NCBI GenBank assembly: GCA_031267575.1
Contig: JAIRYN010000067.1
Location: 1-40,559 of the forward strand
Origin: Synergistaceae bacterium
Lineage (GTDB): Bacteria; Synergistota; Synergistia; Synergistales; Aminobacteriaceae
Length of the DNA stretch: 40,559 nucleotides
Direction: 5' to 3'
Shown here: positions 17,210 to 35,833 of the stretch, piece by piece
Layout of the letters: the number at the start of each line of letters is the position of its first letter
Position numbering within the stretch: position 1 is the stretch's first letter
Notes under the pieces: generated by a model
What the model was told of the DNA's origin: nothing
The model's database searches: none
Seen by the model: only the letters and a program-made list of their open reading frames with translations
Position numbers and translations under genes: made by a program

Positions 17210-17308
17210 GAGAATATACCTCCTTGTGTTTGAGGGGTTTGACTTCAATGTCTATCCCCGTTTTACGTCCGTTGGCATCCATGTCCGACGGACTCGATCC
17301 TTCAAAAT

Positions 17309-20687: not shown

Positions 20688-20716
20688 TTGATTTTCGCCA
20701 GTATAAATGTTATTAT
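20688..20716 (+). promoter_or_regulatory. Promoter of the export operon
   Basis: TTGATT (20688-20693), a 17-nt spacer and TATTAT (20711-20716) make a good sigma70-type promoter, with a start near 20723 and a leader of about 65 nt. It is the only clear promoter seen before the eight-gene operon. Confidence 0.65.
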
Positions 20717-20786: not shown

Positions 20787-22076
20787 GTGAAGGGAAAATC
20801 GAGAGTTCTATGTACTATTTTAATGTCGGCGCTGTTGCTGGGAGCGGAAGTTCGAGCTTTTGCTGAGCTTCTAGAGGTCAATATTGAACGCGCGCTGGGA
20901 CTGGCGATAGCGAATAATAATCGTATAAAAATCGCGAAGTCGGACGTGGCACTTGCGGGAGAGGCAAGGCATTTGGCCCATAGGGCGAAAGGTGTGAACG
21001 TGAGCGTTACCCATAATTCCTCTTATACAGATTACCAAGGGGAAGGGTATCCTCAAAGCTACGGAGAGTCTTACAGCAACAGCATTGTCGGCTCCTATCG
21101 GCTCTATACGGGCGGAATCGTCGGCAGCACTATCAAAGAAGCCGAGAGCGATTACCAATTCCAAAACGAGGTCCTGCGTAAGACCCATCAGGACTTAAAG
21201 CTGGATGTGGTTCGTGGCATCTATACGATACTTCAGACCGAGGACGCGGTCCGCCAGGCGGAAGAATCGGTGAAACGCTTGACCGCTCACGTGGATAACG
21301 TGAGCATCCTCTACGAAAACGGCAGTGTGGGCAGAGCCGATCTGCTGAGGTCGGAGGTCGAGCTTTCCAACGCGAAACAAACTCTTATCCGCGCGTCGAG
21401 CTCCTATGATACCGCGGTGAAACAACTCAACAGTCTCATGGGAGTTTCGCTGGACGCGCAGCTTCTCATAGACGAAAAAATGACTTACGAGAAATACCCC
21501 CATACGCTGGAGGAGTGTGTCTCCTTTGCAAGGCGGATACATCCCGACCTGGCGGGGGCTTCTCACGCCATAAAGTCCGCGAAGGCCGGGGTCGGTGTCG
21601 CCCAAGGAGGGAGGCTTCCCCAGGCGTCTTTGATGGTCACTCAAAATCTCGGATCTATCAACTCGTGGCCCGGAGCGAAGGCGGACTCGCTTTCTGTGGG
21701 TATCAACATCGAGTTCACGGTCCTGGACGCGGGGGCGGGCGCCTCTAAGGTCTCCTCGGCTAAAGAGTCCGTCCAGAAAGCCCAATATCATTATGAACAG
21801 ACCATGGAAACGGTTATTTTGGCGGTCAACTCTGACTATAATAGTATTATGGAAGCGGCTCAAAGGGTGGAAGAATCGATGTCGGCGGTGGGGAAAGCGC
21901 AGGGGGCGTATGACATTGCGGTGGACCGTTATAATGAGGGAGTCGGCACAAATATCGACGTGGTGGATTCTCAAGGCGCTTTGACATCAGCCCATTCAAA
22001 CCATACCCAAGCTCTATGCGATTATAATATAGCGCTCGCCAACATCGAACATTCGATGGGAGGACCTTTGGAGTGA
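20787..22076 (+). CDS. TolC-like outer-membrane efflux protein
   Basis: 429 aa from a GTG at 20787. A signal peptide (VLCTILMSALLLGAEVRAFA, cleaved near residue 27) is followed by two outer-membrane-factor repeats. Each has a long amphipathic helical stretch rich in A, E, Q and K and an NYxL-type segment. Examples are EDAVRQAEESVKRL and GRADLLRSEVELSNAKQ in repeat one, and GVGTNIDVVDSQGALTSA in repeat two. It would form the outer-membrane channel for export by the transporters that follow. Having TolC as the first gene implies export across both membranes of a diderm envelope. Confidence 0.92.
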   Translation: MKGKSRVLCTILMSALLLGAEVRAFAELLEVNIERALGLAIANNNRIKIAKSDVALAGEARHLAHRAKGVNVSVTHNSSYTDYQGEGYPQSYGESYSNSIVGSYRLYTGGIVGSTIKEAESDYQFQNEVLRKTHQDLKLDVVRGIYTILQTEDAVRQAEESVKRLTAHVDNVSILYENGSVGRADLLRSEVELSNAKQTLIRASSSYDTAVKQLNSLMGVSLDAQLLIDEKMTYEKYPHTLEECVSFARRIHPDLAGASHAIKSAKAGVGVAQGGRLPQASLMVTQNLGSINSWPGAKADSLSVGINIEFTVLDAGAGASKVSSAKESVQKAQYHYEQTMETVILAVNSDYNSIMEAAQRVEESMSAVGKAQGAYDIAVDRYNEGVGTNIDVVDSQGALTSAHSNHTQALCDYNIALANIEHSMGGPLE

Positions 22077-22128
22077 AAAAGTTTGAAGCAAAAAAATTCA
22101 AAATGAAAAAGACAGGTCAATTGCGTTC

Positions 22129-23292
22129 ATGAAAAAATTTTTTATGGGGGCGATGGCTGTCATCATTTTCCTTTCTATCGCCTTTGTGGGGTATGGAATA
22201 TACCTCAACCAGACCAGCGACAACCATATCGAGACGATGATGGCCTCCCGTGTCGTGAATGTGCGGGGAATCCGAGTGTCTTTACGGAACATCAGGCCGG
22301 AGATTGTCTTGCCTCGCGCGAATTTTCAGACGAACCGAGCGGCCGACGTCATAGCCCCAATAGAGGGAACCATCGATGAGGTTGCGGCCGTTCAAGGCCA
22401 GGCTGTGAAGCGCGGGCAACAACTTTGCACTCTCGTCAATAGGGATATAGCGCTTCAGATCTCCAGGGCGAACACTGACGTCGCCAAGGCCCAGGCCTCG
22501 TATGCCCAAGTCCGAAACGAGGCCGATAGGAGCAAACGCCTTGCCGAGAGGGACGCTATCTCCCAAAACGAGTTGGAGACGGCGACGGCGCGCCTGAAGG
22601 CGGCGGAAGCGGAACTGGAGGCGACCAGAATCGCGCTCAGACAACTCAATCAACAGAAAAGATTTCAGACCGTAACCTCTCCCCTGGATGGTTTTTTGGT
22701 TGCCTTTTACAAAGAAACAGGTTCCTATGTTCAGAGAGGCGAGCCTGTGGCTATGGTCGCTGATTTTTCACACCTCATGTCCAGGGGACAGGTTACGGAC
22801 GCGCAGATCAAGAACATAACACCGGTGGACGACGTTTTTTTGATGCGCATGGACATGTCGTACCTCACGGAAAAAGCTCTAGATATGGCATTTGCGTCCG
22901 GTTTCGAGGAGAATTTCATCATAAAAACCAGAATACGGAACATTGATCCGCCCATGAGCGAGAACGCGCCTCTCAGGATCGTGACCTGGGAGATGGAGAA
23001 TGATCGGGCTCTGCTGGAGCCGGGATATTACACGGACGTGACGATAAGCAGGAACGACATGAAAAACACGCTGGCCGTGCCTCTCATGCTGATTAAGGAT
23101 ATAAAAAACCCGTCACTTCACGCGCGAGACTCGAACTCGAAACTCGCCGTCAGAAAGGTCGAGACCGGTGTTTATGGCGAAGGCCTGATTGAGATTCTGA
23201 GCGGGATAGAAGAAGGCGACGTGGTGATCACGTCGGACATTGAGGGTATCGGGCTGGAAACCCAAGTAGACGTAACGCTGGAGGACTATTGA
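22129..23292 (+). CDS. HlyD/AcrA-type periplasmic adaptor
   Basis: 387 aa. One N-terminal membrane anchor (residues about 5-26) is followed by a biotinyl-lipoyl half-motif (VIAPIEGTIDEVAAVQGQAV), a coiled-coil hairpin (about 110-180, rich in A/E/R), a second lipoyl half (TSPLDGFLVAFYKETGSYVQ) and a beta-barrel region. It would bridge an inner-membrane transporter and the TolC channel. The family is the RND/MacA/HlyD adaptors. It lies 52 nt after the TolC gene, and a 9-codon frame (MKKTGQLRS) ends on its ATG. A second, different adaptor follows at once, so the operon has two. Confidence 0.9.
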   Translation: MKKFFMGAMAVIIFLSIAFVGYGIYLNQTSDNHIETMMASRVVNVRGIRVSLRNIRPEIVLPRANFQTNRAADVIAPIEGTIDEVAAVQGQAVKRGQQLCTLVNRDIALQISRANTDVAKAQASYAQVRNEADRSKRLAERDAISQNELETATARLKAAEAELEATRIALRQLNQQKRFQTVTSPLDGFLVAFYKETGSYVQRGEPVAMVADFSHLMSRGQVTDAQIKNITPVDDVFLMRMDMSYLTEKALDMAFASGFEENFIIKTRIRNIDPPMSENAPLRIVTWEMENDRALLEPGYYTDVTISRNDMKNTLAVPLMLIKDIKNPSLHARDSNSKLAVRKVETGVYGEGLIEILSGIEEGDVVITSDIEGIGLETQVDVTLEDY

Positions 23293-23294
23293 CG

Positions 23295-24251
23295 ATGAAA
23301 AAAGAGATATTCAGCGAAGCCGCGCTAGCGCGGCTTCGTTCGCCTGAACAGTTGGATTCCCTTTTTCGCGTGACCCAACCCGTGACGTGGATGGCTCTCG
23401 CGATGCTGTGTGTCTTGACGGCGTCCGTGGTGTTGTGGAGCTTTTACGGAGTCCTGTCTGAATCAGTGACCACCGTGGGCATGATCATCGACTCCGCTGG
23501 GGTCGTCAACGTCTATCACGACGTTGGGGGACGACTGACGGAAGTGCTGGTGCGCCCAGGGATGCGGGTGAAGCAAGGCGACGTGGTGGCCCGCCTGTCC
23601 CAGCCCTCCATGTTGAACGACATCGCCATGTCCAAACAGAACATTGCCGTATCCACGAACAAGCAACAGGTGGAAAGTGGTATCGCGAACTTTGATTCCG
23701 TGACGAGCAAATGGTATCAATCTGCAGAGGTTGTGAGCGCCTACGACGGGATCATCTTGGAGGTCGCCGTGAACGAGGGAAGCATCCTCGCCCCAGGGTC
23801 TATGGTGATCTGCACCATAAGGCGTGACCAAAATAGGGATGACGTATCGGCCCTCATGTACGTCCCCATGGAGTCCGGCAAAAAGGTGAATGTGGGGATG
23901 GTCGTGCGCCTTACGCCCAGCGGCTCGGACGCCGACGAGGACGGCAGCCTCATGGGGGTGGTACGGCAGGTATCGCAGTATCCGGCCTCCAGCGCCGGGA
24001 TCGCCAAAAATATCGGCAACATGGACGTGGTACAGTGGATAACGCAAAACTTGGGAGGCGCCGTTGTCGAGGTGAGGGTGGACCTCGTCCGCGACCCGAA
24101 GTCTGAATCGGGTTATCTGTGGTCGTCCATCACGGGCAACCATCCCAAGGTAAGCGCGGGAAGTTTCTGCAGCGGCATGATCGTCGTGAAGCGCACCCCG
24201 CCGATAGAGAAAGTGTTCCTGAAATTGAGCCAGTGGCTCCGAAAATCCTGA
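23295..24251 (+). CDS. NHLM-type bacteriocin system HlyD secretion protein
   Basis: 318 aa from the ATG at 23295 (GGAGG about 10 nt upstream), near the preceding stop. It has the layout of the NHLP/NHLM secretion-protein family: an N-terminus ALARLRSPEQLDSLFRVTQP, one membrane helix (WMALAMLCVLTASVVLWSF), then GRLTEVLVRPGMRVKQGDVV (lipoyl half) and SAYDGIILEVAVNEGSILAP. The coiled coil is very short compared with ordinary HlyD. In this family it works with a peptidase-containing ABC transporter to export leader-peptide-bearing products. Confidence 0.88.
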   Translation: MKKEIFSEAALARLRSPEQLDSLFRVTQPVTWMALAMLCVLTASVVLWSFYGVLSESVTTVGMIIDSAGVVNVYHDVGGRLTEVLVRPGMRVKQGDVVARLSQPSMLNDIAMSKQNIAVSTNKQQVESGIANFDSVTSKWYQSAEVVSAYDGIILEVAVNEGSILAPGSMVICTIRRDQNRDDVSALMYVPMESGKKVNVGMVVRLTPSGSDADEDGSLMGVVRQVSQYPASSAGIAKNIGNMDVVQWITQNLGGAVVEVRVDLVRDPKSESGYLWSSITGNHPKVSAGSFCSGMIVVKRTPPIEKVFLKLSQWLRKS

Positions 24252-24252
24252 A

Positions 24253-26454
24253 ATGTTCCATGGCCGCTGGTTTAATAAGCGAGTTCACCATACTCCCACG
24301 TTGCTTCAAATGGAGGCGGTGGAGTGCGGCGCCGCAGCGCTGGGCATTATTCTGCGTTTTTTCGGCCGAATTGTCCCGTTGGAGACGTTACGCTCCGAGT
24401 GCGGAGTGAATCGTGACGGCAGCAAGGCCAACAACATGGTGAAGGCCGCCAGAAGATTTGGCATGAATGCCTCTGGAAAGCGTTTCACCGCGAAAACGGT
24501 TTTATCCGAGGTGCGCACAAAGGGAACTCCGATGATCATACACTGGAACTTCAACCATTTTATCGTTCTCGAAGGAAACAAGGGAAACGACGTTTTTCTC
24601 AACGATCCCGCAATGGGGCACAGGACGGTGAATAAGGAAGAATTCGTCAGTTCCTTCACCGGCATCGCGCTTTTGTTAACTCCTGGCCCCGAATTCAAAC
24701 GCGGCGGTAAAAAGTTTAGCGTGATGAAAGAGGTCGCTAGGAAATTAGGGCGTGAAAAAGGCGCTCTCGTTTTCGTTTTGATTGTTGGGCTTTTGATGAT
24801 CGTGCCGGGGCTCGCAAAGCCGGTTTTTGACGAGATTTTCGTGGACGAAATACTCAGCGGGCATCATATGAGCTGGATGATAGATCTCATCCTCGCTATG
24901 AGCGTTGCCTTCCTAATGGACGGATTCCTCTCGTTTCTGAGACAGATGGTTTTGATCAAATGGCAGACGAAACTCACGCTCTCAGACTCCAGCGAGTTCC
25001 TTTGGCACATCCTCAGATTGCCGGTGGCGTTTTTTCAGCAGCGCTTCAGCGGCGAGATCGCCATGAGGGTCTCCTTCAACGAAACAGTCGCCAATAACCT
25101 CACTGGCGAGGCCGCCACGGCTATTCTGGACATTTTTGTGGCTCTTTTCTATCTCGTCCTTCTCGTTCAGTACAGCCCGTCTCTTACCGCTATCGGGGGA
25201 TCTTTCACCCTCCTCAACATCCTGCTGATGTCCATTTTGAGAAAACGCCTCACGGAAATGTCCATGAGGATTCAGCAAGAGAGCGGAAAAGCGATGGGAA
25301 CTGCGGTCAGCGGACTCCAGGTGATCGAAACTCTAAAGGCGAATGGCAATGAGGCCGATTTCTTCTCGAAGTGGGCGGGCTACAAGGCGAAGGAAAACGC
25401 GAGTATGCAAGAGGTCACCCTATCGGCTCAGGTAATGTCCGTCGTTCCTGCCTTCTTCAACGGGCTGAATGTTGCCCTCATCATGCTGGTGGGCGGCTTC
25501 AACATCATGGACGGCCTGATGTCCTCGGGCATTTTCATAGCGTTCCGCAGCCTAATGACGAATTTTCAGGAGCCGGTGACGAAACTGATGAGCCTCGCGC
25601 AGACCCTCAAAACCACCGAGGTTCAGATGCAGAAGCTCAACGATGTGAGACGCTACGAAACGGACGCCATCAATTATCCCGAACAACCGGCGCAGCCCAT
25701 TGGGAGAAACAAACTAACGGGGCTTGTGGAATTTAAAGATGTTTCCTTCGGCTATAGTCCGCTGGATCCGCCGCTGATCGAGAACTTTAACTTTACTCTC
25801 AAGCCGGGCAGGTGGGTGGCGTTGGTCGGCGCGTCCGGCAGCGGCAAATCGACTGTGGCGAAGTTGGCGAGTGGCCTGTACCACGCCTGGAGCGGAAAGG
25901 TGTTTTTCGACGGGCTGGAGAGGATTGATGTTCCAAAAGACGTGCTCGTCAGCTCTATAGCCTGCATCGACCAAGAAATATATCTCTTCTCCGGTTCGGT
26001 CAGAGAAAACCTCTCCCTGTTCGACCCGTCCGTCCCGGAAAATGACATTCTCGCGGGGGCCAGAGACGCCATGATCAACGACGACATAACGGCGCTCAAG
26101 GAAGGATACGATTACCGGATAAGCGAAGGCGGTTCCAATTTCAGCGGGGGCCAGAGGCAGCGGCTCGAAATTGCCCGGGCGCTTGCTGTCAATCCGTCGC
26201 TCCTGATATTTGACGAGGCCACTAGCGCGTTGGACCCGGTGACGGAGGAAGCGGTTCTCACAAACATCAGACGCAGGGGATGCGCCTGTCTCATGGTGGC
26301 ACACAGGCTGTCGGCGTTTCGCGACTGCGACGAGATCATCGTTCTTGAGTTTGGCAAAGTGGTCCAGAGAGGGACCCACAACAAGATGATCACGGAAGAT
26401 GGCCCGTACCGCAGGTTGGTTTCCGCCCAGACGGGCGGTTCGAGCAGCGACTGA
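24253..26454 (+). CDS. NHLM bacteriocin export ABC transporter with C39 peptidase domain
   Basis: 733 aa. Domains in order: C39 peptidase (about 10-140) with all catalytic residues in place (Cys25 in LLQMEAVECGAAAL, His102 in WNFNHFIVLEG, Asp118 in LNDPAMG), transmembrane domain (about 160-460), and ABC ATPase (about 490-725). The ATPase has Walker A GASGSGKST near 526-534, signature SGGQRQR near 630 and Walker B LLIFDEATSALD near 650. The peptidase normally cuts leader peptides after a double glycine while exporting the core. It starts 1 nt after the adaptor stop with no clear ribosome site, so translation is probably coupled. Confidence 0.93.
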   Translation: MFHGRWFNKRVHHTPTLLQMEAVECGAAALGIILRFFGRIVPLETLRSECGVNRDGSKANNMVKAARRFGMNASGKRFTAKTVLSEVRTKGTPMIIHWNFNHFIVLEGNKGNDVFLNDPAMGHRTVNKEEFVSSFTGIALLLTPGPEFKRGGKKFSVMKEVARKLGREKGALVFVLIVGLLMIVPGLAKPVFDEIFVDEILSGHHMSWMIDLILAMSVAFLMDGFLSFLRQMVLIKWQTKLTLSDSSEFLWHILRLPVAFFQQRFSGEIAMRVSFNETVANNLTGEAATAILDIFVALFYLVLLVQYSPSLTAIGGSFTLLNILLMSILRKRLTEMSMRIQQESGKAMGTAVSGLQVIETLKANGNEADFFSKWAGYKAKENASMQEVTLSAQVMSVVPAFFNGLNVALIMLVGGFNIMDGLMSSGIFIAFRSLMTNFQEPVTKLMSLAQTLKTTEVQMQKLNDVRRYETDAINYPEQPAQPIGRNKLTGLVEFKDVSFGYSPLDPPLIENFNFTLKPGRWVALVGASGSGKSTVAKLASGLYHAWSGKVFFDGLERIDVPKDVLVSSIACIDQEIYLFSGSVRENLSLFDPSVPENDILAGARDAMINDDITALKEGYDYRISEGGSNFSGGQRQRLEIARALAVNPSLLIFDEATSALDPVTEEAVLTNIRRRGCACLMVAHRLSAFRDCDEIIVLEFGKVVQRGTHNKMITEDGPYRRLVSAQTGGSSSD

Positions 26455-26455
26455 C

Positions 26456-29182
26456 ATGGCGACGATTACGCTCGCGCAGAGCGAATACCACAGCGTCCCT
26501 TGCGACGATGCTTACGTCTACACTCTGACGTCGGGGAAGGTCGAGGTCTACGCCTGCACGCTGGAGGGATCGGCAAACTATCACAAGATGTTTCTGGCGG
26601 TTATCGGGCCAGGAGAGGTCTTTTTCCCTCTTCTGGAAGCTCAATCCCCCTTAAAAATTTCCGTGTTCGCGATGACCGACGCGGAGATTTTGGAAGCAGA
26701 AACGGCCCAGACGCCGCCGGATATTTTCGCGGAGATGGCGAGCAGGTGGTTCAAGAAATTGAGCGATTTGCCGTGGCTCCGCTATCTTGTCGGCATAAAC
26801 GACGACGTGGTTTCCCGCTGGTTCAGCGAAACCGTATTTGACGAAACCGGTCAGGCTTCTTTTGGGGCTTCTTTTCAGGCCTCTCTCGGCACTGTGAAGG
26901 AAACATTCCTGTTTAATCAAGAGATTCTTTCCATACTCATTTCGGCTCGATTCAGCGCCGACGAACGGCGCGCGGGAGAACGCGCTGAGAATCGGGCAAA
27001 GCAGAGAGTCAAGACGATGTTCGCGGCGATAGCTTCTATCCTCAGCACGGAATACACGTGGTTCGATAGGATCAAAGATTCCGCCATGAACCTCGACGAT
27101 CCAATTTCTTTCGCCGTCAGGATGGTGGCGAGGCATTTCGGCATGGCGACGGAAACCGTTAAACTTCCCCCGGACATGACGTCGAAAATGGACTCGCTGA
27201 CCCTGATGAGACGCCTTGTCAAGAAGGCCAACATGCAAACGCGTCTGGTCACTCTGCCGAAAGATTGGTATAAAAGTGACGCGGGGACGCTTCTTGGCTA
27301 TTACGGAGAAAATCGCGAAATTATTGCCATTATCTCGGAGGGCATCGGGAAATACCGCCTTTTCAACGCGTCGACTCCTCAAGGGCTAAAGGTGAACGCC
27401 GCCGTCGCGGCGCGAATACAGCAAGACGCGTTTGTGTGTTATCCTGGTCTTTCGGCTAAAAAACTGAATTTTCGGGACCTTCTCCGTTTCGCTCTGAAGC
27501 ACGTCTGGAAACACGATTGGCTGACGATATGGGGGCTCAGCGCTCTATCGGGAATCCTGGCCTTCGTCTTGCCTATGGTGACGGCGACCGTGTTTCAGGA
27601 TATTATTCCCATCAATGATCGCCAGGCTCTTGGTACCGTGACTCAGGTCATGTTGGTATCCGGTTTTACCACCGCTGTATTGGGTTTGGTGAGAAGCGTG
27701 GCGTTCATGCGGGTAAAGTCTTACGTTGCCCTGGTCGAATCTGCCCTATGGTCCAGGCTTTTGTCTCTGCCGGCGCGTTTTTTCAGACAGTACGAAATGG
27801 GGGATCTTCTGAATCGGATGCAGGGAGCGCCTATTATCATGGGGCTTTTGGACAACAACCTGCTTTCGGCCATTTTCGATTCGCTGTTTTCGTTCTGCAG
27901 TCTCGTCCTCATGTTTTACTATAGCTCCGAACTCAGTTGGAGAGTGATCATCCCTTGGGGTGTCTATATCGTGCTCTCAGCGTTCGTGTACAAAAAGCTT
28001 TTGTTCCTCTCCGAGAAAAAAATAGAGGCCATGAACAAAACTTCCGCCTTGACCCTTCAGATATTGAGCGGCTTGTCCAAGTTCAAACTGCAAGGCGCGG
28101 AGAGTTCCGCGTTTCATCTGTGGACGCGGGTGTTCAGGGAAGAGTGGAGCTGGAAGTTGAAGATGCGGTGGCGGCAAAGTTTCGTATCAATTCTCAACAT
28201 TGTCCAGCCCACCCTCATGACGATGGCGGTTTACTGGTTCGTGATGGAGCCAGTGAGGGCCGATCCGAGTGCGCAACCGTTTTTGACTGTTTCGAAGTTC
28301 ATGGGTTTTCAGGCCGCGTTCGCTGGTTTTAACGCTACTCTCGTGTCTCTGATCCCCTACGCGGCAAATATTTTCACCGCTAAACCCTATATAGAAAATC
28401 TAAAGCCCATTCTAGAAGCCGAGCCTGAGGTTACGGAGGACAAGATGGACGCGGCAACCCTGAGTGGGGACGTTGAGATAAAAAACGTGTTTTTCAGCTA
28501 CGATCCGGGTTTGCCTATGGTATTGAAGGGAATCTCTTTACACGTGCGGCCTGGCGAATCTGTCGCGTTCGTCGGCAGTTCTGGGTGCGGCAAATCCACT
28601 CTCATTCGTTTGCTGCTGGGTTTTGAAACGCCGACTCAGGGCGCTATTTACTTTGACGGGCAGGCCCTGGCCGGCCTGAACGTCTCGTCGGTCCGCTCTC
28701 AAATGGGCGTCGTACTGCAAAATGGACAACTGATGTCGGGCGATATCTTCACGAATATCGTCGGGACTTTGCCGCTGACGGAAAACGACGCGTGGGAGGC
28801 CGCTCGCATGGTGGGACTTGACCGGGACATCGAAAACATGCCCATGGGAATGCATACGATGATCAGCGAGGGCGCTGGCAACATATCTGGAGGGCAAAGA
28901 CAGAGGATACTTCTGGCGCGCAGCCTGGCCAACCGGCCAAAGATCATCATACTCGACGAGGCCACCAGCGCGCTGGACAACACGACCCAGTCCATAGTCA
29001 CCGAAAGCATGAAAGCTATCCGGGCGACGAAAATAACCGTTGCCCATCGCCTGAGCACGATCGAGGACGCGGATCGAATTTTTGTCATGCAAGATGGTGT
29101 AGTAGCGGAAGAGGGCAACTACGAGACGTTGATGAAACGGGATGGCCTATTCGCCAAACTTGCCAAAAGGCAAATGGAGTAA
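26456..29182 (+). CDS. NHLM bacteriocin export ABC transporter, second permease/ATPase subunit
   Basis: 908 aa from the ATG at 26456, 1 nt after the previous stop. The N-terminal ~370 residues are not a C39 peptidase. They begin with a cupin/cyclic-nucleotide-binding-like beta region (TLTSGKVEVYACTLEG..IGPGEVFFPLLE), as in the second NHLM transporter family, and continue into a helical region. The transmembrane domain spans about 350-620. The ATPase has Walker A GSSGCGKST near 706-714, signature ISGGQRQR near 809 and Walker B IIILDEATSALD near 830. It probably forms a heteromer with the peptidase-bearing transporter, as in other NHLM loci. Confidence 0.92.
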   Translation: MATITLAQSEYHSVPCDDAYVYTLTSGKVEVYACTLEGSANYHKMFLAVIGPGEVFFPLLEAQSPLKISVFAMTDAEILEAETAQTPPDIFAEMASRWFKKLSDLPWLRYLVGINDDVVSRWFSETVFDETGQASFGASFQASLGTVKETFLFNQEILSILISARFSADERRAGERAENRAKQRVKTMFAAIASILSTEYTWFDRIKDSAMNLDDPISFAVRMVARHFGMATETVKLPPDMTSKMDSLTLMRRLVKKANMQTRLVTLPKDWYKSDAGTLLGYYGENREIIAIISEGIGKYRLFNASTPQGLKVNAAVAARIQQDAFVCYPGLSAKKLNFRDLLRFALKHVWKHDWLTIWGLSALSGILAFVLPMVTATVFQDIIPINDRQALGTVTQVMLVSGFTTAVLGLVRSVAFMRVKSYVALVESALWSRLLSLPARFFRQYEMGDLLNRMQGAPIIMGLLDNNLLSAIFDSLFSFCSLVLMFYYSSELSWRVIIPWGVYIVLSAFVYKKLLFLSEKKIEAMNKTSALTLQILSGLSKFKLQGAESSAFHLWTRVFREEWSWKLKMRWRQSFVSILNIVQPTLMTMAVYWFVMEPVRADPSAQPFLTVSKFMGFQAAFAGFNATLVSLIPYAANIFTAKPYIENLKPILEAEPEVTEDKMDAATLSGDVEIKNVFFSYDPGLPMVLKGISLHVRPGESVAFVGSSGCGKSTLIRLLLGFETPTQGAIYFDGQALAGLNVSSVRSQMGVVLQNGQLMSGDIFTNIVGTLPLTENDAWEAARMVGLDRDIENMPMGMHTMISEGAGNISGGQRQRILLARSLANRPKIIILDEATSALDNTTQSIVTESMKAIRATKITVAHRLSTIEDADRIFVMQDGVVAEEGNYETLMKRDGLFAKLAKRQME

Positions 29183-29193
29183 AAATGGGGTAG

Positions 29194-30039
29194 ATGTCAA
29201 TGACTGATTTCATGGACGCTCTTGTGGCGAATAAGTATTTGGATTATCGATACTCGATTCCCGAAAAGATATTCAAAAAAGAAAACTTTCCTCTTCCAGA
29301 CGAAGCATTTACCTCCAAGTGGATTGCTTGGCTGGAGAACCGGGATAGCGATTTTCCTGATGATGTTTGCGCCTTGCTCTCGGGACCGGGCGTGAGGGTG
29401 TGGCTAGAGGCGACGCCCGCTGGCGGAATCCCCGTCGTGTACGCGGAGGACAGACGACTCTTCGAGAGATTAACCGCTATTTTGAGCATGGAAGACGAGG
29501 AGAGGACGCTTCCCGCCAGTGTTAACGCGTTCACGCTTCCCGCCAAGCACCCCGGTTTTACGGGACACAGGGTGATATGCCTGGCCAAGGCGGGGTATAG
29601 CGCGCTCTCCGGTGAGGACGTGGGGATCGAGAACGGGGAATGGTTGGAGAAGTCCGCTACCATACGGTTGCGTCACGAGTGCTGTCATTACTTTACGTTG
29701 AGGGTCCTGGGAGGCATGAAGAACCACGCGCTGGATGAGGTGGTGGCGGATTGTGTCGGGCAATTATCCGCTTTTGGGCGTTACGACGCCTCGTTGCAGA
29801 GAAAATTTTTTGGTTTGAAAGATGATGGCATCGTCCAAGGCGGGCGTCTGGAGTTTTATGTAAAAAAATTGTCCAAAGGCGCGGTTGCTTTAGTTTGCCA
29901 GAGAGTCGAAGAAGCTTTGGATGGCCTGGAGAAATATCTCGAAAAAAACGACGAAATGGCCTTTAAGGATCGTGGGCCGGAATTGATCGTGAAGCTCGCT
30001 ACTCTCGGCCTTTCCGGAATAGCGGAGCTGGGTCGTTAG
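29194..30039 (+). CDS. HExxH putative zinc metallopeptidase of the export operon
   Basis: 281 aa (ATG 29200 is an equally possible start with a better-spaced GGGG). I do not recognise the family. Residues 161-165 are HECCH, an HExxH zinc-peptidase signature in a helix (IRLRHECCHYFTLRVLGG). Downstream HALDEVVADCVG (178-189) offers Glu182 or Asp186 as the third ligand, spaced as in gluzincin-like families. There is no signal peptide or membrane segment, so it should be cytosolic. It starts 11 nt after the second transporter. A role in processing or quality control of the exported product is inferred from position only. Non-catalytic metal binding cannot be excluded. Confidence 0.65.
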   Translation: MSMTDFMDALVANKYLDYRYSIPEKIFKKENFPLPDEAFTSKWIAWLENRDSDFPDDVCALLSGPGVRVWLEATPAGGIPVVYAEDRRLFERLTAILSMEDEERTLPASVNAFTLPAKHPGFTGHRVICLAKAGYSALSGEDVGIENGEWLEKSATIRLRHECCHYFTLRVLGGMKNHALDEVVADCVGQLSAFGRYDASLQRKFFGLKDDGIVQGGRLEFYVKKLSKGAVALVCQRVEEALDGLEKYLEKNDEMAFKDRGPELIVKLATLGLSGIAELGR

Positions 30040-30060
30040 TTTAGTTGTGTCTTGCGGTTG

Positions 30061-30096
30061 TGTCTTTCAGCTATGTCTTTCAGTTATGTCTTTCAG
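30061..30096. repeat. 13-bp x~2.8 tandem repeat
   Basis: TGTCTTTCAGCTA, TGTCTTTCAGTTA and TGTCTTTCAG fill the gap between the HExxH gene and the ribosome site of the next gene. Confidence 0.88.
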
Positions 30097-30125
30097 GGAA
30101 GCCAGTTCTTCAAGGAGAGGTGCTT

Positions 30126-31514
30126 ATGCTTTTCACAATATCGCGATTGATATCGCGAGACGGAGTGGATATCGAGAGTACTCCCTACGCTGAACAAGAC
30201 GAGATCAACTCCTGCGTTTTTGACGCGACGGATTTTTTCAAGGTGACCGGCATCGAAAAATACAAAATGAACTTTTCCGTACCGCGGAAAAGGGAGGTCG
30301 CAATAGAGGTCCTAAAGACGTCCTTCGCCTATGCGGCGCTTTCGTCGCGACTGGACGCGGTGAAAAACCGCATTCGGGAGTTAAGCGAGTACAGCAGGAA
30401 AAATTTTTTGTTCCAAAGCCCTGACTTGACAGAGGAGGAATCTCGCGTCGCTGGCGAAACCAGGCTTCTGCGGACGGAAAAGACGCACCTTCTGGACGAG
30501 ATCCAACGCCTGACCGTCTCGGAGATCGGCGCTCGAAAAGAAAATCGTATTTTGACGTATAAAGACACGGTTTTGTGCAACTCTCTCGAAAATATGGAGA
30601 CGATCCTACCCGAACTCCGCGGAATGGACGCGGGCAGACTGGAAAGAATCCCGATATTTACGAAGGCCTTCGACGAATTGCCCGCGAAACGAAAGAGTGG
30701 TCAGAGACTGGCCGTCGTGGGTGGCCCTTGTCTACTGGGGACCGGAGAAATGCTCATTCACGTGATTCACAGCAACGGCAGCTCGTCCTGCTTCGATTTC
30801 AACACGGGAAACTACAGCGGCAATCTGCGCGACGAGGACGCCCTCGGACCCCACATCAGAGAAAACGCTGACAGAATCGTGAAAATTCTCTTTGAAAACA
30901 AAAAGAACGCGCTGACGCTTCAGGACCACGAATTTCTGCGGTTGCCGATGGAATTCGCACGCATGCTGGAGGTTCCCGTAGTCATTCCCTTGCCCGACGC
31001 GGCCTATATGAAATATATCGAATCGGTCACCTCCTCTGCTGCTCCGGATGTCCGCGAATCGGTGAAGGGGGATTTTGAGGTGGAAATACGCCAGATTTCT
31101 CGGCTGTTCCTGGACGCCATCGAGGAACTGAAGCGCCATCTGTGCCCTCCGAAGCTGGCGGTGCTCCATGCCGGCGATGAAGCGGGGCTCAATGCCTTTT
31201 ACAACGGCAGGCGATGCTATTATGACCGATTTCTCTCGTTCAGTCAGGGATTAGCGCCGATAACCAGGAAAGCCGATATGATTGAATCTGTGACGGATTA
31301 TATTTTTTACCCCGCGCTACCTTTTTATTTGTGGGGTATCGAAAATATCATTCAAGTCGATTCCCTGAACGAAACAGATTCTCTGCGCAAATGCGCGAAC
31401 GCCCATGGGTCCGCGATCCATCTTTTCGGCGTGCTCTATCCCGAAATGCTCGATAAAAGCGCCTCCCGGGCCATGTCGATGGCCCCCGTCGAGGACAAGG
31501 AGTACATGCGTTGA
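30126..31514 (+). CDS. Uncharacterised 462-aa protein of the export operon
   Basis: 462 aa from the ATG at 30126, which has AAGGAGAGG about 6 nt upstream. A longer in-frame version would run through a tandem repeat. I recognise no family. Visible features are a charged, coiled-coil-prone stretch at about residues 70-140, a glycine-rich turn RLAVVGGPCLLGTGEM near 225, and no signal peptide or membrane helix. The protein looks cytosolic and globular. Its stop overlaps the TTG start of the next gene, so the two are translationally coupled and probably act together. Its position between an HExxH protein and a sensor-transporter chimera suggests a role in making or handling the exported product, but that is a guess. 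Confidence 0.7.
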   Translation: MLFTISRLISRDGVDIESTPYAEQDEINSCVFDATDFFKVTGIEKYKMNFSVPRKREVAIEVLKTSFAYAALSSRLDAVKNRIRELSEYSRKNFLFQSPDLTEEESRVAGETRLLRTEKTHLLDEIQRLTVSEIGARKENRILTYKDTVLCNSLENMETILPELRGMDAGRLERIPIFTKAFDELPAKRKSGQRLAVVGGPCLLGTGEMLIHVIHSNGSSSCFDFNTGNYSGNLRDEDALGPHIRENADRIVKILFENKKNALTLQDHEFLRLPMEFARMLEVPVVIPLPDAAYMKYIESVTSSAAPDVRESVKGDFEVEIRQISRLFLDAIEELKRHLCPPKLAVLHAGDEAGLNAFYNGRRCYYDRFLSFSQGLAPITRKADMIESVTDYIFYPALPFYLWGIENIIQVDSLNETDSLRKCANAHGSAIHLFGVLYPEMLDKSASRAMSMAPVEDKEYMR

Positions 31515-34500
31515 AGAGCAAACGTTCTAAATTAGATTTTTACAAATTAGATTTTTACAAATTAGATTTTCACAAATCAGGTTTTCGGGCGATATTTTAC
31601 GTGATATTCTGTGCCGCCATAGCCTCAATCTTGTTCTTGCATCAAAACTTTCGCTACGGGCAACTAAATCCGTTTAGGGAGGTTGAGCTGCACAATATCC
31701 TGATGGCCAAGACGGACGTTGCCGGAGACACGTATATCATAGACAGCGGCAGGAGTCGAATCGTCAAAATGAATGAGGACGGCCGCGCCAGCTATGAGAT
31801 AAAAGGGGGAAGCGACGGCGACGTCTTTTACAATGTGTGTAACCTCGCCGTCGAAGACGAAAAGAGCTTCTTTCTCCACGAAGTCGCGTGGGACGAAAGC
31901 GGAATGAGTGTTATCACCGAGCGCATTCTAGAGTTTGACAAGAGATCAGGGGCGTCGCGGGGGGAACTGTATCGACTTGACCGGAACGCGATTAGCGCCG
32001 ATAAAAACCTGTCGGCTTTGATTGCGTTGAACATCCTGAAATTTGAGGCTGGGAAGCTGTGGTTTGTGCGAAAAGATGAGGATTTTTTCGCGCTTCACAG
32101 CCTTGTTCCGGGAGAAGCGGCCGTTACGGAATATACCTTCAGTTACAAGGAAGCTCTGTGGACCTTGGGCGATTTTGCGGTCGATGTCGTCGCGAAACGG
32201 CTTTTCTTCACGGACAAGACTGGCGTCGTCAAAATTGCCGACTTCGATGAAATCAGCAATGGGGGAAAAAATAAAATATCCGTCCTTTTCAATCCGGTAT
32301 CTGGAGTTTCGGCGAGGGAATTTTCCCTTCCGTACCGGTTGGCCCTTGGCGAATCCGAGCTGTATTTTTCCGACATCGGCAAACGGGCAATTATGCGCTT
32401 GGACGGCGAAAACACGGCAAAAATCGTGTTAGGCGGCTGGGAGGATGATTCTCTGCCGGTTCTCTATTCTTTTGTGCATTTTAGAGACATGCCGCCTAAG
32501 GACGGCCTGCTGACCTTGAATAGCGACGCTTCCATCCTCGGTCTTACTCCGGCGGGAAAAGAAGTCTTCCGTGCCTCGTCGCTGCCGGTTGGGCATCGGA
32601 TCCTGTTGCTGAGGATCTGTTTTTGGGTCTCCATGTTTGTTCTCCTGTCATCTCTAGTCCTGGTTTTCACGGGGACTGTTTTTCGTTTTTTGAACAGCGA
32701 AAAGACGAACGTCAAGGAACTGCTGTCGCTCTCTATTATCGTAGGCATGGGCTTGGCGTTTATTGCGGTGGTACCCACGGTCTTCAGCGAACTGAGAGCC
32801 ACGGCGAAAAATGAAATGATGAACCGGCTCTCCTATATCATGGAAGTCTCCTCTCAAATTCTCGACACGAAGGCACTGGCCGAAATCAAGACCCCCCAAG
32901 ACTACAATGGGCTAGCATACAGGAACTTCAGGGATTCCCTGGACGACCTTGTGAAAAGAGAAAAAGAGTGGAACAGACAAATATACTGCGATGTTTTCCG
33001 ATTCAAAGATGGAATCCGGTATAGCGTCTGTTTTTTGGATGGAACGATCGGAGCGTTTTTCAACCCAACAAGCGTTGAAAATTCCGAAGCCCAGGTCTGG
33101 GAGGAGAAGGACGAATGGATTAAAAACATGGGCTACCAAGACGCCAGTGGAAACTACATGTCCCTGACCGGTCCGATTTACAACGCCGACGGTGGAGTAG
33201 GGGGAGGAATCGAACTTGGGGTCGATTTGTGGGCACTGGAAAATCGTATTCGCGTTCTGTCGAAGGGCGCTCTGGTTCGCACTCTGCTTATATTGGCGTT
33301 CTTGCTCTTTCTCGTTTCCGAGATCATCGAATCCATCCCCTTTACGAAAATCCACTCCAGGAATGAGGACGAAAGAGAAATCCCCATCGCTTACCTCCGT
33401 CCCTTTACGTTTGTCGTTTTCCTGGCGTTCAACTTGTCCACCGGATTTCTTCCCAACTACGCGATGAAACTGGGCGCTTCTTTCATGGGCTTCTCTCCCG
33501 AATTCTCCGCTGTTCTGCCGATCACCGTCGGCAATGTCACCCTAACAATCGCGCCGTTGATATTGCCTTTTATGATCGCGCGCTTAGGTTTTTATAGCTC
33601 TTTTGTTGCCGGTTTCGTTCTGTGTGTCGCGGGGTACACACTGAGCGCCGCCGCGATCACGGTCGATTCGCTTACCGTGGGAATGGGTGTTTTGAGTTTG
33701 GGTGCTGGTACGTTATTCACTTTGACGCAGACATGCGTCGCAGCGCGGAAAAACGCCGACGAAAAGGCTTTGGCGTTTTCTTCTTTCGCCTCCGCTAGTT
33801 TTTCCGGCATCAATTGCGGTATTATGATCGGAGGTATTATCGCCGTCTCCTTCGGTCAAAAAGCGGTTTTTTCCTTCGGCACCTTTGGGATGCTATCGGT
33901 GATGGCGGCGTTCCTGTTTTTGACGAAGAAAAAGATGGAAATCTGGCGTCCTGCCGGCGTGGGTGTCGCGCGCCCAGCTCGCGCGCCATTCGTGTTTCCC
34001 CGGAGGATTATCGAGTTTCTGGCGTTGTCGTTCTTTCCATTTACCCTGTATAGTGGGTTTATATACTATCTCGTTCCCGTGTTTGGTAGCCAGTCTGGAT
34101 TTTCCGACGCGGAAATCAGCTTGGTTTTCGTCTTTTTCGGAATGGGCCTCATGTTCCTGGGGCCAAAAATCGTGGCTTTCACGCGCGGGGAAACGAACGA
34201 CATCTCTTCTTTCCTCTGGACGGCTCTCGTCATAGAGCTGACGGGTATTCTTTGCTTCGCCTCCTTCCAATCCATAGCCGCGATGCTGGCGGCGGTTTTT
34301 GTCCTGGGAGGAGCGTCCGGTGTGGGCAACGTGTATTTTCCTCTTTACCTTACAGAAATGCCCGAAACCAAGAAACTCCGGGAAGGCAGCGATATGGCAT
34401 TGTTCAATTTTACCGAGAATCTGGGATTCGCAGCTGGCCCCATGATCTTCAGTGCCATTTTACACTCCGGATCTTCCGCCTGGTATTATGTCCTGGCTGC

Positions 34501-34576
34501 CTCGATGCTGCTGACGTCCTTGTTGTACCGCACCGTCCGGCGCGACTCACAAGACTCTACTGGGCTTCCTCGATAA
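31511..34576 (+). CDS. Chimeric membrane protein: beta-propeller-like sensor, Cache-like domain and MFS transporter
   Basis: 1021 aa from a TTG at 31511 (AAGGAG 8 nt upstream) overlapping the previous stop. Order: short cytosolic tail with LDFYK repeats (7-21); membrane helix 26-44; extracytoplasmic region 45-360 with NHL/beta-propeller-like strands (DTYIIDSGRSRIVKMNEDG, LYFSDIGKRAIMRLDG); helices 364-390 and 404-425; a second extracytoplasmic domain 430-585 resembling Cache sensors (ending SLTGPIYNADGGVGGGIELG); helix 587-606; then about 12 helices of a major facilitator domain (625-1010). The MFS part has no obvious substrate signature. It closes the export operon and might sense an envelope signal or export or import a related small molecule. 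Confidence 0.75.
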   Translation: MKSKRSKLDFYKLDFYKLDFHKSGFRAIFYVIFCAAIASILFLHQNFRYGQLNPFREVELHNILMAKTDVAGDTYIIDSGRSRIVKMNEDGRASYEIKGGSDGDVFYNVCNLAVEDEKSFFLHEVAWDESGMSVITERILEFDKRSGASRGELYRLDRNAISADKNLSALIALNILKFEAGKLWFVRKDEDFFALHSLVPGEAAVTEYTFSYKEALWTLGDFAVDVVAKRLFFTDKTGVVKIADFDEISNGGKNKISVLFNPVSGVSAREFSLPYRLALGESELYFSDIGKRAIMRLDGENTAKIVLGGWEDDSLPVLYSFVHFRDMPPKDGLLTLNSDASILGLTPAGKEVFRASSLPVGHRILLLRICFWVSMFVLLSSLVLVFTGTVFRFLNSEKTNVKELLSLSIIVGMGLAFIAVVPTVFSELRATAKNEMMNRLSYIMEVSSQILDTKALAEIKTPQDYNGLAYRNFRDSLDDLVKREKEWNRQIYCDVFRFKDGIRYSVCFLDGTIGAFFNPTSVENSEAQVWEEKDEWIKNMGYQDASGNYMSLTGPIYNADGGVGGGIELGVDLWALENRIRVLSKGALVRTLLILAFLLFLVSEIIESIPFTKIHSRNEDEREIPIAYLRPFTFVVFLAFNLSTGFLPNYAMKLGASFMGFSPEFSAVLPITVGNVTLTIAPLILPFMIARLGFYSSFVAGFVLCVAGYTLSAAAITVDSLTVGMGVLSLGAGTLFTLTQTCVAARKNADEKALAFSSFASASFSGINCGIMIGGIIAVSFGQKAVFSFGTFGMLSVMAAFLFLTKKKMEIWRPAGVGVARPARAPFVFPRRIIEFLALSFFPFTLYSGFIYYLVPVFGSQSGFSDAEISLVFVFFGMGLMFLGPKIVAFTRGETNDISSFLWTALVIELTGILCFASFQSIAAMLAAVFVLGGASGVGNVYFPLYLTEMPETKKLREGSDMALFNFTENLGFAAGPMIFSAILHSGSSAWYYVLAASMLLTSLLYRTVRRDSQDSTGLPR
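31531..31575 (+). repeat. 15-bp x3 in-frame tandem repeat
   Basis: ATTAGATTTTTACAA twice and ATTAGATTTTCACAA once. They encode the LDFYK/LDFYK/LDFHK repeats in the cytosolic N-terminal tail of the chimera. Confidence 0.95.
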
Positions 34577-34610: not shown

Positions 34611-34634
34611 AAATCATGATATAAAATCATAATA

Positions 34635-34672
34635 AAAGTGAGCCAAGCGCCAAATGGTACTTGACTCACTTT
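34635..34672 (+). terminator. Terminator of the export operon
   Basis: The stem AAAGTGAG-C-CAAG pairs with CTTG-A-CTCACTTT around a 12-nt loop, and the 3' arm ends in TTTCTTT. It lies about 60 nt after the last gene of the operon. It also abuts the right end of an IS200/IS605 remnant. Confidence 0.7.
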
Positions 34673-34680
34673 CTTTGACA

Positions 34681-34821
34681 TACTTCCACGACTAAAGTCG
34701 TGTGATTTTAAGACCGACAAAGACAGCCAATTGAAGTGGGTCTTACGTCTTCTCTCTCAAGAGTCGATGCCCCGACTCTGCGGATATTCAGCGCCGCATT
34801 GATATCGCAATCATGAAAGAA
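34681..34821 (-). pseudogene. tnpB: IS200/IS605 tnpB 3' remnant with right-end hairpin
   Basis: On the minus strand the frame ending at the TAA at 34708-34710 reads HDCDINAALNIRRVGASTLE, followed by a short tail. This is the C-terminal end of TnpB/OrfB transposon nucleases (the DxDxNAAxNI segment after the zinc finger). Everything upstream is missing, including the RuvC core. Just beyond the stop, CACGACTTTAGTCGTG forms the hairpin usual at the right end of these elements, where the guide RNA scaffold lies. It is a decayed insertion that can no longer move by itself. Confidence 0.8.
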
Positions 34822-34849
34822 GTCTAATATGAATTTAGAGACACGACAA

Positions 34850-34937
34850 GAAACAAAAACGAACACCACTCGTTGGCAGCGTTGCGATTCTTATCCAACG
34901 GCTGAAGCCCTTAGCTTTCTCATCGCTTTATCGTAAA
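34850..34937 (-). repeat. Dispersed ~90-bp repeat, copy 2 (minus)
   Basis: Read on the minus strand it starts TTTACGATAAAGCGATGAGA, identical for 24 nt to the copy after the second tRNA-Thr. It continues with a similar GGCTTCAGC(C/T) hairpin, GGAT(A/G)AGAAT and a T-rich end. I do not recognise the element. Confidence 0.75.
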
Positions 34938-34966
34938 GGGCTCTTCAAAGAGAGCAACCTGCCTCG

Positions 34967-35029: not shown

Positions 35030-35833
35030 TTAAAAAGGCGTCAAAATTCTGCTGTTCCGGGGTTGAACCGGGCGCGCATTCCTGCCGATCAGATCCGTAA
35101 ACCACTGTATCTGTCCTGCACCCGCCGTTCCGTGCTCGCTCAGGATAACCCAAGAGACTCCCTCGGTTGTTGGTGGAGTAGTCAGAGAACCGTTGTACCG
35201 GATGCCGCTCAAATTCCGTGGCAACAAGTTCGTCAGGGGAAATGTTTTTTCGATCTGCTCCGTCTTACCACGATCCCTCGGCGCCGCACTCCAAGCTAAC
35301 GCAATCGCTTCGTTTTCGGGTCCCTCATCGATAAAAAGCCCCACGACGGCAAGACGTCCTTTGTCGTCGCCATGTACGAAGTGAATTTCCATTGGCGCCT
35401 GCGTCCCGTTCAGTGTGTGCTCCGATGGCGTGTGAAAGTGCAGTTGCTGAAGACGATACCGGACACCTCCCAGGACGATGTAATTTTCCGCTCCGTCTTT
35501 GGGAACTACCTGTAAGGTGTGTCCGTTATTCAGGATGGAAAAATCGCCATCTTTGTAAAAAAATTCAACCCCATTCCGTTCACTTTCTGTAGGGATATCA
35601 ATAGGCGACTGGGCATCGCCCACCGCCTCTTTAAAGGCAGGCGAAAGATTCTCCCAGTTTTCGGGTCCTTCCGCTCCTGAATAGGACCAGTGGACTTCTG
35701 ACGCGAGAGAAGAGGAAACAAATACACTTAAGAAAAACACACAACATATCGCGGATATAAAAACCTTCCATCTGCTCTTAAAGTTCTTGTTCTTGAAGTT
35801 CCGCCGCTCATTGACCTTGAAAATTTTCATCAT
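35030..35833 (-). CDS. Alpha-type carbonic anhydrase, exported
   Basis: 267 aa. Interconverts CO2 and bicarbonate in the periplasm. A signal peptide with an unusually long basic n-region (hydrophobic core VFISAICCVFFLSVFVSSSLA, ending near residue 45) is followed by the alpha-CA domain: WSYSGAEGPENW, QSPIDI and the zinc ligands His132, His134 (QLHFHTPSEH) and His151 (EIHFVH). GSLTTPPTTEGVSWVI closes the active site. All ligands are intact and the length is normal. The ATG at 35833 has GGAGTG upstream. The n-region contains an imperfect NFKNK/NFK duplication. It follows the DUF3343 gene by 31 nt and is probably co-transcribed with it. Confidence 0.94.
   Translation of the reverse strand: MMKIFKVNERRNFKNKNFKSRWKVFISAICCVFFLSVFVSSSLASEVHWSYSGAEGPENWENLSPAFKEAVGDAQSPIDIPTESERNGVEFFYKDGDFSILNNGHTLQVVPKDGAENYIVLGGVRYRLQQLHFHTPSEHTLNGTQAPMEIHFVHGDDKGRLAVVGLFIDEGPENEAIALAWSAAPRDRGKTEQIEKTFPLTNLLPRNLSGIRYNGSLTTPPTTEGVSWVILSEHGTAGAGQIQWFTDLIGRNARPVQPRNSRILTPF

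Follow-up and report, generated by a model that had tools for sequence, protein, structure and literature searches.

An eight-gene NHLM-type export locus of Synergistota with a predicted DUF7005 peptidase and a probable sensing or immunity cassette

Eight adjacent genes in a Synergistaceae genome form, judging by their families and order, a defined locus whose most likely function is the export of small ribosomally made peptides after cutting. The explanation that we regard as reasonably probable combines an NHLM/Nif11 peptide exporter, a zinc peptidase of family DUF7005 and a sensing cassette composed of an orphan protein and a sensor/MFS chimera. The locus lies in a stretch of 40,559 nucleotides (the window). 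Genomes, contigs and loci are designated here by G, C and L numbers, G000 being the window's own genome. Its relatives are Synergistaceae MAGs, whose isolate names suggest a termite-gut origin.

Results

Organization of the operon

All eight open reading frames described in an earlier note on this DNA were recovered on the + strand. They are listed below with the candidate signals at either end.

20688–20716, + strand: candidate promoter, TTGATT-17-TATTAT with TG before the −10 (9/12 consensus match, extended −10)
20787–22076, + strand: gene 1, TolC-family outer-membrane channel (PF02321, 182.6 bits)
22129–23292, + strand: gene 2, RND/MFP-type periplasmic adaptor (TIGR01730, 148 bits, cut-off 95)
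23289–24251, + strand: gene 3, NHLM HlyD-like adaptor (TIGR03794, 230.7 bits, cut-off 156.2)
24253–26454, + strand: gene 4, NHLM ABC1, C39 peptidase-permease-ATPase (TIGR03796, 974.7 bits, cut-off 853.3; PF03412, 109.8 bits)
26456–29182, + strand: gene 5, NHLM ABC2, permease-ATPase without peptidase (TIGR03797, 733.0 bits, cut-off 709.4)
29194–30039, + strand: gene 6, DUF7005, predicted cytoplasmic zinc (gluzincin-type) peptidase (PF22541, 131.9 bits, cut-off 27)
30126–31514, + strand: gene 7, orphan, 462-aa soluble protein (no Pfam or NCBIfam family at E≤1)
31511–34576, + strand: gene 8, sensor/MFS chimera, 1021-aa membrane protein (PF07690, 52.1 bits, cut-off 33.4)
34634–34675, + strand: intrinsic terminator-like hairpin (RNA fold −18.3 kcal/mol)

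The spacing is as tight as had been claimed, with junctions of −4 to +52 nt and a single larger gap of 86 nt between DUF7005 and the orphan gene. This gap, the only sizeable one in the operon, holds an imperfect tandem repeat (TATGTCTTTCAG-like units, 30045–30098). The orphan and chimera genes overlap by 4 nt (ATGCGTTGA junction). An AAGGAG site precedes the orphan start (ATG 30126, giving 462 aa), and the MLFTI start is conserved among homologues. The ABC2 reading frame is listed from 26399; the junction sequence contains an ATG at 26456, directly after the gene 4 stop, and this is more likely to be the true start. Pairwise omega values of 0.11–0.31, where computable, indicate purifying selection on genes 6–8.

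The terminator proposed 3′ of the set was borne out by folding, a loop-limited scan having missed the hairpin. The proposed promoter has the consensus match and extended −10 listed above, but a motif scan found 19 promoter-like matches in the region against 9.6 expected by chance, so that equal matches are expected there and this one is no proof of a promoter. Directly after the terminator lies a TnpB-like remnant of IS200/IS605 type (DCDINAALNIRRVGASTLEREDVRPTSIG; 34690–34960, − strand), and a similar piece occurs in L171 (2741–2956). Other genes of the window include a eukaryotic-type (alpha) carbonic anhydrase (35030–35833, − strand; PF00194, 119.8 bits) and a 987-aa flagellin (14285–17248, − strand) with about 745 residues between its conserved N- and C-terminal domains.

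The exporter

Genes 3–5 were expected to encode an NHLM-type exporter, and by family assignment they are a true NHLM export set, because the NCBI models TIGR03794, TIGR03796 and TIGR03797 all score above their curated cut-offs within one operon. The C39 peptidase domain of ABC1 is intact (residues 15–146 of the protein), and the catalytic Cys, His and Asp motifs QMEAVECG, NHFIVL and NDP can be read from the translation. The N-terminal region of ABC2 is weakly cNMP-binding-like. The five-gene exporter recurs in Synergistaceae without genes 7 and 8, complete in L038 and from the adaptor on in L045 and L047; an NHLM variant completed by TolC and an RND-type adaptor is common in this family. In four genomes of genus g17 (G016:C3, G071:C30, G084:C166 and G089:C247), a match of about 580 aa to an ABC transporter contains one in-frame TAA.

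DUF7005

The match of gene 6 to PF22541 covers mostly the C-terminal half of the profile. Alignment of 19 sequences revealed the motif HExxH-x16-DExxAD, in which H161, E162, H165, E182 and D186 are invariant. The protein model is confident (pLDDT 91.8), and a TM scan found no membrane segment. Foldseek comparison with solved structures gave no match at E≤0.001; among the weak matches, none of them significant, M1 aminopeptidases, M30 lugdulysin and other zinc gluzincins recur. No match was obtained among viral structures, and literature searches on DUF7005 returned no reports. DUF7005 is probably, as a prediction from sequence, a cytoplasmic zinc peptidase of gluzincin type.

DUF7005 was found in 19 of 83 genomes of the family, and 17 of these have a strong NHLM ABC2 match, compared with 15 of the 64 genomes that lack DUF7005 (Fisher p = 3e-7). 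NHLM genes are found within about 12 kb of most copies, L100 and L101 being exceptions. For this protein, homologues lying away from NHLM transporters, which were to count against a system, are thus the minority.

Conservation and mosaic origin of the locus

The same eight genes occur in the same order in two genomes of another family within the order, G159 (L130/L138) and G151 (L132/L136). Identity to the window proteins is 69% for ABC1, 54–56% for ABC2, 54% for DUF7005, 44–45% for the orphan and 38–41% for the chimera. Such conservation of gene order argues that the eight-gene set is a defined locus and not a chance neighborhood. Co-occurrence of the last three proteins with both ABC transporters, which had been put forward as the mark of a defined system, is therefore found in full in G151 and G159, although the orphan and the chimera are mostly located away from NHLM genes. 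In a variant present in G020 and G028, DUF7005 is followed by a distant chimera (24–25% identity) and SpoIIE; the G020 copy also has a gene for an RsbW-like kinase before the chimera and one for STAS after SpoIIE.

Phylogenetic trees separate the parts of the operon. The window ABC2 groups with G001 and G004, and DUF7005 with G001, which belongs to the same family as the window. The orphan and chimera group with L034/L035, from the other family, and apart from the G151/G159 cassette. As far as trees can tell, the window operon is a mosaic of an exporter and an orphan-chimera cassette. Either the association of cassette and exporter arose or was renewed more than once, or it is ancestral and has often been broken; such a history points to a functional link, yet also to modularity.

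Precursors and modifying enzymes

It had been proposed that the precursor and modifying enzymes of RiPP clusters are replaced here by the three last proteins. These proteins indeed match no known RiPP enzymes, but the substitution is contradicted by the relatives, in which the same operon directly adjoins Nif11-type precursors, radical-SAM genes and a GNAT/fatty-acid block. In G151, a 112-aa precursor reading frame immediately follows the chimera, and another three precede a radical SAM/SPASM gene; G159 has four. They share the pattern MSK(F/Y)xDFYxK…ELSDDELEAVAGG ahead of a short core. With 33.7, 38.5 and 40.1 bits, several of them exceed the TIGR03798 cut-off of 32.3. In G020, where the TIGR03798 cut-off is likewise exceeded, four Nif11-leader precursors are followed by a B12-radical SAM gene and by TolC, with which the contig ends; we infer that this contig joins the G020 exporter contig. 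In G001, two precursors lie downstream of ABC2-DUF7005, and TIGR03798 scores over the cut-off occur there too.

Between the operon and the radical SAM gene, G151 and G159 both encode a GNAT, a ketosynthase, a FabA-like dehydratase, a KS-like protein and FabG; an ACP was seen in the G159 block. The same block follows STAS in G020, with 40–66% identity. The conserved GNAT-(ACP)-KS-FabA-KSlike-FabG block is located as follows.

L137, 1–7117
L139, 1572–7998
L049, 13387–18164

Acylation of RiPPs by GNATs is known from selidamides (PMC9505594), which makes a lipidated product plausible in G151, G159 and G020. The neighborhoods with the GNAT-ACP-KS-FabA-KS-FabG block suggest, by analogy, lipidated peptides, and the combination of this block with Nif11 precursors and radical SAM in G151 and G159 probably represents a separate type of lipidated-RiPP cluster.

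In the 40-kb window itself, no precursor was detected with a narrow profile, a broad profile or a GG-motif scan, and no modifying enzyme was found among genes 1–8 or ten further flanking reading frames. Targeted searches of the window's own genome found neither such a GNAT nor a close radical SAM relative. The cargo is consequently linked to the locus by comparison only, and the best candidate that we infer, a precursor gene that is incomplete, lies on a different contig.

G000:C34:45084–45271 (locus L163, 8998–9270), − strand: candidate precursor cut by the contig end, ELSEEELEKVAGG then hydrophobic core IVTSTAALVVGAAVGGAVIISIGKALSRW

This candidate has a GG site and scores 27.8 bits with the class IIb bacteriocin model TIGR03949 (cut-off 21.5) and 27.4–28.1 bits with TIGR03798, against a cut-off of 32.3.

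The orphan and the chimera

Homologues of the orphan were found in 11 of 188 Synergistota genomes, and none outside the phylum in what could be searched. Their alignment shows the invariant motifs GGxC..G..E and FDxNT. A PDB profile search with 12 homologues gave no match, and an AlphaFold2 model built from 6 homologues was poor (pLDDT 49.8), its Foldseek list being meaningless. A likeness of the GGPCLLGTGEM and PALPFY motifs to cyclodipeptide synthases was dropped, as no test supported it. The chimera consists of a TM segment, an NHL-type beta-propeller, two TM segments, a Cache-like domain and an MFS transporter domain. The propeller and MFS domains were assigned by PDB profile search, the latter also by PF07690, and the membrane segments by TM scan; the Pfam Cache domain gave sub-threshold matches in chimera homologues (E 0.01–0.1) and none in the window protein. 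Neither the orphan nor the chimera matched any of 72,556 plasmids.

The two genes occur together in the window and in L034, L035, L097, L130, L131 and L132. The L035 pair follows VirB8/9/10 genes and the L034 pair precedes a VirB11-like ATPase gene, all of type IV secretion. Elsewhere the partners are exchanged for partner-switching genes: in L036, L037, L128 and L129 the orphan is accompanied by SpoIIE together with an RsbW-like gene, a STAS gene or both, and the chimera lies beside SpoIIE, RsbW or STAS in L049, L050 and L095. No RsbW, SpoIIE or STAS gene was matched in the window; the only SpoIIE gene that targeted searches of the genome gave, with RsbW and STAS, is on G000:C10. On that contig, between RsbW-like and SpoIIE genes, lies a MatE transporter fused to HATPase_c_2 (L171, 11171–12907), another module of a transporter and a partner switch in the same genome. 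No report that joins partner switching with SpoIIE and MFS came up in literature searches.

NHLM genes adjoin the orphan in 3 of its 12 loci; for the chimera the count is 5 of about 12. For these two proteins, homologues do normally lie away from NHLM transporters, and an interpretation of the chimera as a plain export subunit was rejected on its count. G153, G162 and G168 have the orphan and no detected NHLM ABC2. In G162 (L131), orphan and chimera are intact and DUF7005 is in two fragments. The sequences flanking the intact pair (3209–3430 and 8084–8258) comprise DUF7005 fragments and, produced by deletion, an in-frame fusion of a precursor leader with the C-terminus of a radical SAM protein. 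Survival of the pair after loss of the exporter indicates that it is probably useful without export. Because the three last proteins differ in their association with NHLM, genes 7 and 8 probably form, on this comparative evidence, a separable cassette for signaling or immunity instead of parts of the export machinery.

Discussion

Of the suggestion that the operon is a distinct export or signaling system, the defined locus stands, being present in two families; the three proteins as substitutes for RiPP enzymes do not. We propose that ABC1 would bind a precursor with a Nif11-like leader and that its C39 domain would cut after the GG motif. Transport of the core over the inner membrane would fall to ABC1 and ABC2, and its onward passage out of the cell to the HlyD adaptor, the RND-type adaptor and TolC. 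In the cytoplasm, DUF7005 may act on the same peptides, either by removing or degrading the leader or by trimming. As a cassette, the orphan and the propeller-Cache-MFS protein would sense a ligand outside the cell and possibly pump it out; this ligand would probably be the peptide exported here or one made by a rival. The cassette may report to a regulator of the partner-switching type. A bolder version, which we hold only tentatively, makes genes 7 and 8 a new signaling pair: the chimera would be a "transceptor" that reads the producer's own or a rival's exported peptide at the cell surface, the soluble orphan would relay the signal, replacing or feeding a partner switch, and the pair would move between hosts independently of the exporter. 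If so, this mobile pair would let non-producers listen or resist.

The pair might instead provide self-immunity, with the MFS domain as a pump that clears the exported peptide or lipopeptide from the membrane, the propeller-Cache region trapping this substrate, the orphan assisting and signaling secondary. This is a genuine possibility, though not the one we expect: the MFS domain resembles NorA and other drug pumps, the pair remained intact in G162 after loss of exporter, peptidase and maturase, and its place beside type IV secretion genes in L034/L035 is as expected of immunity in non-producers, but signal transduction is favored by STAS-RsbW-orphan-SpoIIE operons that lack the chimera (L128, L129) and by a chimera next to RsbW/SpoIIE with no orphan (L049). 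Genes 7 and 8 could also be hitch-hikers that arrived downstream of the exporter as a mobile cassette and have no functional connection with it. The disagreement of the trees (ABC2 and DUF7005 nearest G001/G004, orphan and chimera nearest L034/L035) and the majority of orphan loci away from NHLM are in keeping with this; the same order, however, is found separately in G151/G159 with a cassette from another clade, a distant chimera follows DUF7005 in G020 and G028, and the orphan and chimera genes overlap by 4 nt, so that we consider mere hitch-hiking quite improbable.

Two further alternatives concern the cargo and DUF7005. A distinct export system whose cargo is not a RiPP but, for example, a lipid or a bacteriocin-like peptide without modifications would account for a window without modifying enzymes and for the hydrophobic core of the genome's own candidate, with TIGR03949 over its cut-off. 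We think it unlikely, as Nif11 precursors and radical-SAM enzymes adjoin the orthologous operons and the C39 domain of ABC1 is intact. The peptidase role of DUF7005 stays a prediction because HEXXH proteins of RiPP clusters can be oxygenases; those in clusters with GNATs turned out to be so (PMC12636437), and RiPP precursors are frequent at DUF7005 loci. There is nevertheless little likelihood, in our estimate, that DUF7005 is an iron/alpha-ketoglutarate HEXXH tailoring enzyme like PflC/PosC and no peptidase, since it has no NCBIfam match (E≤1) and DUF7005 as its sole Pfam match, its third acidic motif DExxAD is invariant and typical of gluzincins, and the recurrent, non-significant fold matches are to M1, M30 and other zinc gluzincins.

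With the combined exporter, peptidase and sensing cassette as the preferred explanation, an extended peptide-export locus is defined in a little-studied phylum, mostly uncultured among the genomes examined. DUF7005, a family of unknown function, is tied to peptide export as a likely peptidase, and three concrete protein families are offered for testing. The unstudied Nif11-leader clusters that combine radical SAM with a dedicated fatty-acid block and a GNAT are likely to yield new lipidated peptides. If genes 7 and 8 sense the exported peptide, bacteriocin export would be linked to partner-switching control.

Comparison with known systems

Partner switching controls secretion in Bordetella (Btr; PMC8256260). 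As in the Rsb/Btr systems, relatives of genes 7 and 8 adjoin genes for STAS, an RsbW-like kinase and a SpoIIE phosphatase, whereas the window lacks all three defining proteins and the orphan and chimera are not among the components of the Rsb systems described in the literature consulted. The alpha-ketoglutarate HEXXH RiPP enzymes PflC and PosC (PMC12636437) share with DUF7005 a HEXXH protein in a RiPP-type neighborhood; DUF7005 differs in having no family match, and its conserved DExxAD suggests a zinc peptidase. Selidamide/phaeornamide-type lipidated RiPP clusters (PMC9505594) resemble G151, G159 and G020 in that a GNAT and NHLM-like transporters share a neighborhood with leader-GG precursors. 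In place of arginase and LanM, the relatives have radical SAM enzymes and a dedicated ACP-KS-FabA-KS-FabG block, and their leader is of Nif11 type instead of NHLP type; the block is not known from the window's genome, where the GNAT is absent. With the NHLM cassette itself (TIGR03794/TIGR03796/TIGR03797; Haft et al. 2010, PMC2887384), the window operon shares the HlyD-like adaptor, the C39-peptidase ABC and the peptidase-less ABC, all over their cut-offs, and GG-cleaved Nif11-type precursors adjoin the operons orthologous to it. It differs in having no precursor inside 40 kb, and to the cassette it adds an RND-type adaptor, TolC, the DUF7005 peptidase candidate and the orphan plus sensor-MFS cassette.
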